Program-made: the position numbers and the translations under genes
The notes under the pieces: model-generated
Seen by the model: only the letters and a program-made list of their open reading frames with translations
Databases searched by the model: none
Told to the model about the DNA's origin: nothing
Shown: positions 13,769 through 15,736 of the stretch, one piece after another
Layout of the letters: each line of letters opens with the position of its first letter
How positions within the stretch are numbered: position 1 is the first letter of the stretch
From: Prochlorococcus sp. AG-402-L18
GTDB lineage: Bacteria > Cyanobacteriota > Cyanobacteriia > PCC-6307 > Cyanobiaceae
Direction: 5' to 3'
Assembly: GCA_003216725.1 (NCBI GenBank)
Contig: QCIL01000006.1
Span: 1 to 64,000 of the forward strand
Length of the DNA: 64,000 nt

Positions 13769-14548
13769 ATGAGTATAGGGTTCAATCATTTAGGGAAACT
13801 TGGCAGATTAGGGAACCAAATGTTTCAATATGCGGCATTAAGTGGCATTGCTGCTCATCGTGGATTTGATTTTCAAATACCAGTAAGTGATTTTCGAAAT
13901 GAATGGAAGGATCACCAATTATTCGAAGCTTTTAAATTAAAAAATATAACTAAAATTGGTTCTTGCAATGGCCCTTATTTAAAAGAGGCACACTTTCATT
14001 TTGACAAAAACCTTTTTGAAAATATGCCTGATGGACATAATCTATATGGCTTTTTACAAAGTGCAAAATATTTTGACCATATTGAAGAAAAAATTAGAGA
14101 AGACTTTCAGTTTAAAGATTGTATTTATGAACCTTGCGAAAGGACTATACTTTCTCTTGACAAACCTATTGCATTGCACGTAAGAAGGGGAGATTATATT
14201 AAAAACATTGAAAATCATCCACTATGTCCTAAAGAATATTATGATGCGGCACTCTCAAAGTTTGATAAAAAACGTAAGGTAATAATTTTTTCTGATGATA
14301 TAAATTGGTGTATTACTGAGTTTACTGGAGAAAGGTTTGTGTTCTCAGAGGGAGGGAATAATCTTACAGACTTATGTAAGATGTCTTTGTGTGATGATTT
14401 CATTATTGCTAATTCTTCTTTCTCTTGGTGGGGCTCCTGGTTATCAAAAAATCCAAAAAAAAGAATAATTGCTCCAAATAAATGGTTCGGCAAAGGTTAT
14501 TTTCATGATACTTCAGATTTGTATTGCAGTAATTGGGAGGTAATTTAA
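13769..14548 (+). CDS. Glycosyltransferase family 11 (alpha-1,2-fucosyltransferase-like)
   Basis: Transfers a sugar, usually fucose from GDP-fucose, to a surface glycan. GT11 signatures: N-terminal GRLGNQMFQYAALSGIA, the donor-binding HVRRGDY at residues 137-143, and the late block DLCKMSLCDDFIIANSSFSWWG followed by KRIIAPNKWF. 259 residues is on the short side for GT11. Acceptor unknown; cell-surface decoration is the likely role. It lies immediately before the truncated tRNA-Phe copy, a position often occupied by variable surface genes. Confidence 0.88.
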   Translation: MSIGFNHLGKLGRLGNQMFQYAALSGIAAHRGFDFQIPVSDFRNEWKDHQLFEAFKLKNITKIGSCNGPYLKEAHFHFDKNLFENMPDGHNLYGFLQSAKYFDHIEEKIREDFQFKDCIYEPCERTILSLDKPIALHVRRGDYIKNIENHPLCPKEYYDAALSKFDKKRKVIIFSDDINWCITEFTGERFVFSEGGNNLTDLCKMSLCDDFIIANSSFSWWGSWLSKNPKKRIIAPNKWFGKGYFHDTSDLYCSNWEVI

Positions 14549-14718
14549 ATTTAAATTCAGAATTCTCAAAAAAATTCACAAATTTCCCAAATAAGTCCAT
14601 TATTTTAAATAATAAAATTTATATAACTTGTTTTTAAAGGAGAGGACCAATTAATATTGACTTAATAATTTATAGAATGATTAGCGCTTTATAGGTATAA
14701 GACCATTTAAAAATATAA

Positions 14719-14741
14719 AAACCCTGTCTAAGACAGGGTTT
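14719..14741 (-). terminator. Strong hairpin, probable original tRNA-Phe terminator
   Basis: An 11-bp perfect inverted repeat (AAACCCTGTCT / AGACAGGGTTT) with a one-base centre. On the minus strand it is followed by TTTTATATTTTT, a U-rich tail. It abuts the truncated tRNA-Phe 3' end, so before insertion it would have directly followed the tRNA. It could also terminate the fucosyltransferase transcript on the plus strand, but the U-tract favours the minus strand. Confidence 0.75.
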
Positions 14742-14775
14742 AAAGGTGCCAGGACCCAGATTTGAACTGGAGACA
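14741..14775. repeat. Truncated copy of tRNA-Phe 3' end (distal attachment site)
   Basis: 30 bases identical to the 3' end of the intact tRNA-Phe at 15658-15687, then one mismatch and four more matches (34 of 35), in the same orientation. It includes GGTGCCAGGACCCAG and the T-arm. The remainder of a tRNA is absent. This is the direct-repeat structure left by site-specific integration into a tRNA 3' end. Confidence 0.9.
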
Positions 14776-14844
14776 ATATTAAAAATAGTTAATTTTCTGT
14801 ATCATATTTATACCATAAAGACCCTTTTTTGGGGTTAATTTTTT

Positions 14845-14868
14845 AACTAACATTCCACTAACATTCCA
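14845..14868. repeat. Element-internal direct repeat, copy 1
   Basis: 24-base motif beginning AACTAACATTCCAC and itself made of two ACATTCCA units 11 bp apart. It lies 70 bp inside the left att copy. Copy 2 at 15506-15529 matches 23 of 24 in the same orientation. Inverted single units (TGGAATGT) occur at about 14916 and 15460. Possible recombinase arm-type sites. Confidence 0.7.
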
Positions 14869-15049
14869 TATCCATTTAATAAGAATGGTTGTGCAGGATA
14901 ATTTCTATTACAAAATGGAATGTTATTAACTCCATTAAATATTAGTTGGCTTAATAAAGTATTAAGTATTATTTCTAAAAGGCTTTAAAAAAAATATATG
15001 TTTTATTTTTAGTCAACCAAAATTTTAGAGAATATAAAGGGATTTTAAT

Positions 15050-15349
15050 ATGAAAGATTTCCTACTAACAATTTTTAACTTTCTAAAAGATCTTTACAAT
15101 AGACTTATTAAATTTTTAAAAAGTATTTCACCTGAAGAGAAGCCAGTTGAGGATGTAAAGCCTGCTGAAGAAGAGAAGCAAGCTGAGGATGTAAAGCCTG
15201 CTGAAGAAGAGAAGCCAGTTGAGGATGTAAAGCCTGCTGAAGAAGAGAAGCCAGTTGAGGATGTAAAGCCTGCTGAAGAAGAGAAGCCAGTTGAGGATGT
15301 AAAGCCTGCTGAAGAAGAGAAGCCTGCTGAAGATGAAAAACCAGTTTAA
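15050..15349 (+). CDS. Repeat protein with tandem 12-residue acidic/Lys-Pro units
   Basis: 99 residues. The N-terminal ~30 form a hydrophobic/basic amphipathic segment (FLLTIFNFLKDLYNRLIKFLK), followed by about five near-identical units of VKPAEEEKPVED encoded by a 36-bp tandem repeat. The composition suggests an extended, disordered tail behind a membrane-associated helix. Function unknown. Just past the stop, the +1 frame continues as a 27-codon stretch with a CTEC motif to 15428, so the original product may have been longer. Confidence 0.6.
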   Translation: MKDFLLTIFNFLKDLYNRLIKFLKSISPEEKPVEDVKPAEEEKQAEDVKPAEEEKPVEDVKPAEEEKPVEDVKPAEEEKPVEDVKPAEEEKPAEDEKPV

Positions 15350-15505
15350 AAAAAGATGGTGTACTGAATGTAATGCTTATGCAACTACAGCAAGCATTTT
15401 AAAAGGACTCAAGAAATGGATGATATGAGTGAAAACATAAGAGCAAACTTCTATGGAGATGGAATGTAAGTTCTGGGGATTAAAAAATTAGTAATTTTAT
15501 TGCTC

Positions 15506-15529
15506 AACTAACATTCCACTTACATTCCA
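15506..15529. repeat. Element-internal direct repeat, copy 2
   Basis: Second copy of the motif at 14845-14868, differing by one base. It lies 129 bp from the right attachment repeat, so the two copies sit near opposite ends of the element in the same orientation. Confidence 0.7.
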
Positions 15530-15617
15530 AATATATGACCCTCAGAGAGTTCTTTTTTGCTCTCTAAGTGTTTCTTTAGATATCCTGAAAAGAACTGTCA
15601 GAACTAATTTTAGGCAT

Positions 15618-15641
15618 TAAAAAAGCACCTTTTCAGATGCT
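15618..15641 (-). terminator. Replacement terminator for tRNA-Phe carried by the element
   Basis: On the minus strand AGCATCT-GAAA-AGGTGCT forms a 7-bp stem (one G-U pair) with a GAAA tetraloop, followed by six T. It lies 23 bp downstream of the tRNA-Phe 3' end, inside the inserted element. Confidence 0.75.
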
Positions 15642-15657
15642 CATTTAACCCTTTTAT

Positions 15658-15692
15658 TAAAGGTGCCAGGACCCAGATTTGAACTGGGGACA
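15658..15692. repeat. Proximal attachment repeat within tRNA-Phe
   Basis: Covers the 3' end of the intact tRNA-Phe plus a few bases of downstream sequence; direct repeat of 14741-14775. Recombination between the two would excise 917 bp and restore a single tRNA-Phe followed by its old terminator. Confidence 0.88.
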
Positions 15693-15736
15693 CGGCGATT
15701 TTCAGTCGCCTGCTCTACCAACTGAGCTATCCCGGC
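15664..15736 (-). tRNA. tRNA-Phe (GAA)
   Basis: 73 nt, minus strand. Acceptor stem GCCGGGA paired with TCCTGGC, D-arm TAGCTCAGTTGGTAGAGCA, anticodon loop CTGAAAA (GAA), and TTCAAATC in the T-loop. CCA is not encoded. Its last 30+ bases are duplicated at 14741-14775, marking it as the integration target. Confidence 0.97.

Follow-up and report, generated by a model that had tools for sequence, protein, structure and literature searches.

The tRNA-Phe locus of the window (the whole 64,000-nucleotide stretch of Prochlorococcus sp. AG-402-L18 DNA that we analyzed) carries a 917-bp insertion that belongs to a widespread family of very small Prochlorococcus mobile elements with a single gene. We conclude with good confidence that the window element is probably a non-autonomous, integrase-less integrative element with a single gene that is moved by an integrase acting in trans. 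What we observed is the product of integration, sites that lack the insert, a family whose members have common ends but carry different cargo, relatives of the same architecture that encode an integrase, and recent transfer of integrase-less copies.

We found an intact tRNA-Phe (GAA), the integration target, on the minus strand at positions 15662 to 15736 with ARAGORN. From the tRNA call and the repeat match, attR (15657 to 15692) is the copy of the tRNA 3' end that makes the gene whole and functional, while attL (14740 to 14775) is the displaced copy. The two form a 36-bp direct repeat with one mismatch (35/36 identity), in the same orientation and 917 bp apart, which confirms the repeat that the earlier note had described (34 of 35 matches). 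Because the tRNA occupies 15662 to 15736, the att repeat consists of the tRNA 3' end plus 5 bp. Alignment to same-genus genomes revealed many empty sites, in which the left flank up to 14775 runs directly into 15657. In these empty sites the segment from 14719 to 14741 abuts tRNA-Phe. This segment, which lies outside attL in the window, forms a terminator-like hairpin on the minus strand (a 10-pair stem with a T tail) and is the displaced terminator of the host tRNA-Phe. A second terminator-like hairpin (15623 to 15642, minus strand; 8-pair stem and T tail) is borne by the element and lies downstream of the reconstituted tRNA-Phe. The earlier note had reasoned that a repeat shared by all relatives, with no empty or larger allele, would be a fixed duplication; we found empty sites, larger integrase-bearing relatives, and members with other cargo. 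The 917-bp interior contains no recombinase gene, and its longest open reading frame (ORF), of 99 amino acids, leaves no room for one. The insert is thus too short for a tyrosine recombinase, as had been proposed. Upstream of attL, positions 14634 to 14662 bear a faint likeness to the att core, but 26 of 1,000 shuffles scored equally high, and a third, decayed att there is unproven. Just outside attL we also noticed a 259-amino-acid ORF (13769 to 14548) that looks fucosyltransferase-like by eye; it is missing from the aligned empty-site relatives and is possibly a separate insertion.

Each end of the element carries three copies of an 11-mer (CTWACATTCCA), two of them direct and one inverted. 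At the left end the two tandem 11-mers (CTAACATTCCA) occupy 14847 to 14868 on the plus strand, and the single inverted 11-mer (ATAACATTCCA) lies at 14916 to 14926 on the minus strand, at the inner edge of the left end module. At the right end the tandem 11-mers are at 15508 to 15529 (plus strand), with the inverted copy at the inner edge of the right module (15460 to 15470, minus strand). The internal 24-base repeat that the earlier note had reported is therefore real and corresponds to the two tandem 11-mers near each end, but the inverted single copies had been overlooked. The window contains the doublet pattern twice, versus 0.04 expected, and these two sites, both in the element, are the only ones in the whole 1.40-Mb assembly, where a reversed control gave none. 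Since the repeats at the left end of an element match those at its right end, we propose that both sets of tandem 11-mers are arm-type sites of an integrase. The repeats could also serve as operators, and in integrase-bearing elements they do lie close to the integrase start.

These repeats sit within end modules that are common to relatives with different cargo, about 185 bp on the left and about 230 bp on the right. The left module (14741 to 14926) comprises the att, the two direct repeats, and the inverted repeat. The right module (15460 to 15692) has 93 to 95% identity with three members that carry other small genes as cargo (those of genomes G428, G545, and G553). Homology to these members stops on the left at 14923 (G428 and G553) or 14868 and resumes on the right at 15460 (G428 and G553) or 15495 (G545). 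The alignments thus place the switch of cargo between members at or near the inverted repeats.

The cargo gene of the window element (15050 to 15349, plus strand) was identified as an ORF and encodes 99 amino acids, an N-terminal segment followed by E/K/P-rich 6-amino-acid repeats; the protein matched no Pfam family. Homologues of the gene, with part of the segment upstream of it, are found elsewhere in other genomes. That segment (14937 to 15049, plus strand) is partly conserved with the chromosomal homologues, in alignments running from query position 238 on, and together with the cargo gene it has about 72 to 74% identity in several same-genus genomes. Eight copies of the element carry the E/K/P-repeat gene with differing repeat numbers, the G294 copy being partial because its contig starts inside. 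Within the coding sequence, the repeats of 18 bp span 15134 to 15346, and their number differs between copies (proteins of 57 to 111 amino acids); this array is possibly a length-variable locus. Codon differences between copies were too few for judging selection on the cargo. Two mini-elements at tRNA-Cys (loci L136 and L138) likewise have a tandem-repeat protein (NKFSINEILLSSKEAYQKELNNKG) as cargo.

Of 266 same-genus genomes, 9 contain the doublet pattern and none contain its reversed control; all of the loci examined were at tRNA-Phe. By hand count, extra tRNA-Phe 3' ends are present in 33 of the 217 genomes that have a tRNA-Phe end, spaced 0.14 to 8 kb from the other end where both are on one contig. 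The family extends to a second target: extra tRNA-Cys ends occur in 31 of 205 same-genus genomes (hand count), and among ten tRNA-Cys inserts and three integrase-bearing ones that we read, most have matching repeats at both ends. The tandem repeats differ between sub-families, for example GTTCCATAC, TGTACTGCA, and GTGTACTCCA. In 27 elements, the longest word common to both ends had a mean length of 12.7 bp within elements versus 4.0 bp across sub-families; the G417 element had no word common to its two ends. When one representative of each of 8 sub-families, assigned by eye before this end-pairing test, was used, the true left/right pairing was the best of 40,320 permutations. The smallest mini-elements with one gene are about 0.8 kb long. 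The near-complete genome of MIT 9107 (G276) also carries the element. There (loci L034 and L035), several inserts with different arm repeats are apparently in tandem at tRNA-Phe, and the assembly breaks inside the element.

Our scans turned up several chance or unrelated matches. A viral contig (L057) carries the tandem 11-mer of the window element, at 1586 and at 1977 to 1998, just upstream of small ORFs. This contig has phage-like genes, and we treated it as unrelated to the family; its repeats are perhaps an unrelated operator. Two contigs titled neither Prochlorococcus nor Synechococcaceae (L059 and L063) have a single doublet and no tRNA and are likely chance matches. In viral contigs, neither pattern scans nor protein scans with the right end, cargo, or integrase yielded anything relevant.

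The larger relatives encode a candidate for the missing integrase. The G516 element is 5.3 kb long and has a 513-amino-acid protein beside attL as well as a serine resolvase. Seven relatives of this protein align, and their invariant R305, K337, R413-H414, and Y451 (G516 numbering) resemble the tyrosine-recombinase set. No integrase match was found for it in Pfam or PHROGs, and a comparison of its profile with recognized integrases was without significance. The proteins are apparently tyrosine integrases, an assignment that rests on the conservation of R, K, R-H, and Y and on a 2023 preprint (PMC10187409). In its accessible text, the preprint reports a family of tyrosine integrases, located at tRNA-Phe and tRNA-Cys of Prochlorococcus and Synechococcus, that is often near a small serine recombinase, is distinct from tycheposon integrases, and defines a picocyanobacterial element. 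We think that the integrase of the relatives belongs to this family; the match is by description (the tRNAs, the adjoining serine resolvase, and the lack of a PHROGs match) and not by sequence.

This divergent integrase is present in 8 of 265 genomes. Four copies are at tRNA-Phe, in G516, in G380 (split over two contigs), in G406, and in G484 (broken by a stop codon), and four are at tRNA-Cys, in G452, G500, G572, and, by att sequence, G422. Integrase-bearing elements have the order att, tandem repeats, integrase gene, which is the layout of the mini-elements, and the left end of the integrase-bearing tRNA-Cys element of G452 has 84 to 87% identity with integrase-less elements of G179 and G368. 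Another genome (G549; locus L101, 1586 to 9653) has an insert of 8 kb at tRNA-Phe that includes a fragment of the integrase and in which we recognized by eye DNA methyltransferase-like, helicase-like, and ATPase-like genes, perhaps a defense system. An autonomous element with the CTWACATTCCA repeats was not found among the genomes and viral contigs searched. A co-resident integrase may still exist in the window's cell, since the window's assembly is 85% complete. The near-complete, element-carrying MIT 9107 contains no integrase of this divergent (A1) type, and its sole Pfam integrase (PF00589) is a 389-amino-acid protein that recurs in other genomes. That match leaves room for the idea that a host recombinase such as this protein, instead of the tRNA-Phe integrase family, moves the element. 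We regard this as very improbable, as the paired-repeat layout is the same as in the tRNA-Phe and tRNA-Cys integrase elements, which points to their enzyme.

We compared integrase-less copies and their flanks between hosts. The elements of G595 and G596 have the same cargo, no integrase, and 98.4% identity over 961 bp. At the att sites, identity drops to the level of the host DNA, about 70% in the right flank and about 50% in the left. The left end of the window element has 94.5 to 97% identity with G410, G473, and G463 and its right end 94 to 96% with G410, G463, and G294, versus 75 to 77% for the host flanks in both cases. A less clear pair, at tRNA-Cys (G288 and G390), has 81.8% identity in the element and 62 to 75% in the flanks. 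These identity profiles indicate that integrase-less copies have moved between diverged hosts. Homologous recombination between bacterial strains is common, and recombination of the whole tRNA-Phe region might spread the element on that general background. In both the G595/G596 pair and the window/G410 pair, however, there is an abrupt loss of identity at each of the two att sites, and the shared flank consists of the att repeat and the tRNA only; we find this explanation highly implausible.

The earlier note had left open whether the element is trans-mobilized or a remnant. If it were a dead remnant, a larger tRNA-Phe island would have lost its integrase and most of its genes in place, leaving an immobile CIME-like relic. 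Decayed relatives do exist: the integrase of G484 has a stop codon, that of G549 is a fragment, G430 has a cargo-free copy of 252 bp, and the left att of G117 is weakened. But hosts that carry the same integrase-less element differ far more in their flanking DNA than in the element itself, many copies with different cargo retain two intact ends, and the G276 element sits among other inserts. A remnant is therefore quite unlikely, and we prefer a trans-mobilized mini-element, given that the copies transferred between diverged hosts are themselves without an integrase.

We also considered mobilization in cis by accretion, in which a mini-element leaves only together with an adjoining autonomous element, as in the CIME-ICE tandems described in PMC5704250. 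In G406, a 1.16-kb mini-element at tRNA-Phe immediately adjoins the left side of an integrase-bearing element, and the tandem inserts of G276 would also fit. Yet the repeats of the two G406 neighbors differ, and the G595, G596, and window copies are without an autonomous partner, so that transfer as a pair would need loss of the partner each time. We judge accretion unlikely. Mobilization in trans, which we favor, would have the mini-elements borrow the integrase of their rarer, larger relatives, and very probably this is how they move.

The mechanism that we propose is as follows. The element would keep the DNA that a tyrosine integrase needs, namely, the att core of tRNA-Phe and, at both ends, arm-type sites made of two direct and one inverted 11-bp repeat. 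The picocyanobacterial tRNA-Phe/tRNA-Cys integrase element, as the rare autonomous relative, would supply the integrase in trans, and recombination of attL with attR would yield a small circle. The circle would reach another cell, and its insertion at the 3' end of tRNA-Phe would restore the gene and bring a new terminator. We infer the binding of the repeats by the integrase, its action in trans, and the circular intermediate. More tentatively, with somewhat less than an even chance in our estimate, there may be a gene-cassette economy at the two Prochlorococcus tRNA genes, in which a large pool of integrase-less one-gene elements is divided into arm-repeat sub-families, a rare cognate integrase acts in trans on each sub-family, and cargo is exchanged at the inverted repeats while the end modules stay conserved.

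The window element resembles several known systems in part. It shares hosts and target tRNAs with the element of PMC10187409, and its integrase-bearing relatives fit the integrase description in that preprint's accessible text. The window copy sits at tRNA-Phe, but it has neither the divergent integrase nor the serine recombinase and is not an autonomous member. As far as its accessible text goes, PMC10187409 describes integrase-bearing islands and mentions neither the att boundaries nor paired repeats nor members that have one gene and no integrase. Like the tycheposons with which the earlier note had compared it, the window element is a cargo-carrying element integrated at a tRNA in Prochlorococcus, but that comparison needs correcting: the nearest integrase-bearing relatives look like the PMC10187409 element, whose integrase that text sets apart from those of tycheposons. 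Tycheposons are given as 4 to 200 kb in the available part of a secondary source (PMC10872708), and we do not class the window element as one because it is 0.92 kb long and has no recombinase. Nor does it qualify as a phage satellite, as the element had no match in 50,697 phage records and the cargo none in viral contigs; plasmid records also held no match to the element.

CIMEs are decayed ICEs or IMEs mobilized by accretion (PMC5704250). Like them, the window element keeps attL and attR and lacks integration and transfer genes, and the G406 tandem with an autonomous element is a further likeness. The elements here differ in going down to about 0.8 kb and one gene, in the number of integrase-less copies, and in the differing cargo between conserved ends. 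No conjugation proteins were recognized among the small set of relative proteins scanned. By analogy, the element would work like a CIME or MITE-style derivative of the PMC10187409 element. Additive flexible genomic islands at tRNAs of streamlined marine and freshwater bacteria, from 330 bp upward, are likewise small cassettes marked by direct repeats of the tRNA end (PMC10872708), and small tRNA-bounded islands are reported in Ca. Actinomarinales as well (PMC7771536). In the portions of these two papers available to us, paired end repeats, conserved end modules, and integrase-bearing relatives are not described for such islands. Integron cassettes offer an analogy only: there too each unit has one gene and is moved by an integrase encoded elsewhere, but here no IntI platform is apparent, integration targets a tRNA gene whose 3' end bounds the element, no integrase gene lies inside, and the units carry paired 11-mers. 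If true, the cassette economy would be somewhat integron-like, with the tRNA gene as the platform and the arm repeats as a specificity code.

Small tRNA-bounded cassettes were thus already known. As far as open-access papers show, what is new here is that the repeats are paired, that cargo varies while the ends are conserved, and that integrase-less copies outnumber integrase carriers. The paired end repeats provide a way to find elements that integrase-based island finders would miss. For a family of elements whose mechanism is stated to be unknown in the accessible text of PMC10187409, our results supply boundaries and a probable recognition code and indicate that most members are non-autonomous. 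They also offer a testable route by which single genes may spread among streamlined ocean cyanobacteria, with no need for each gene to carry its own recombinase.
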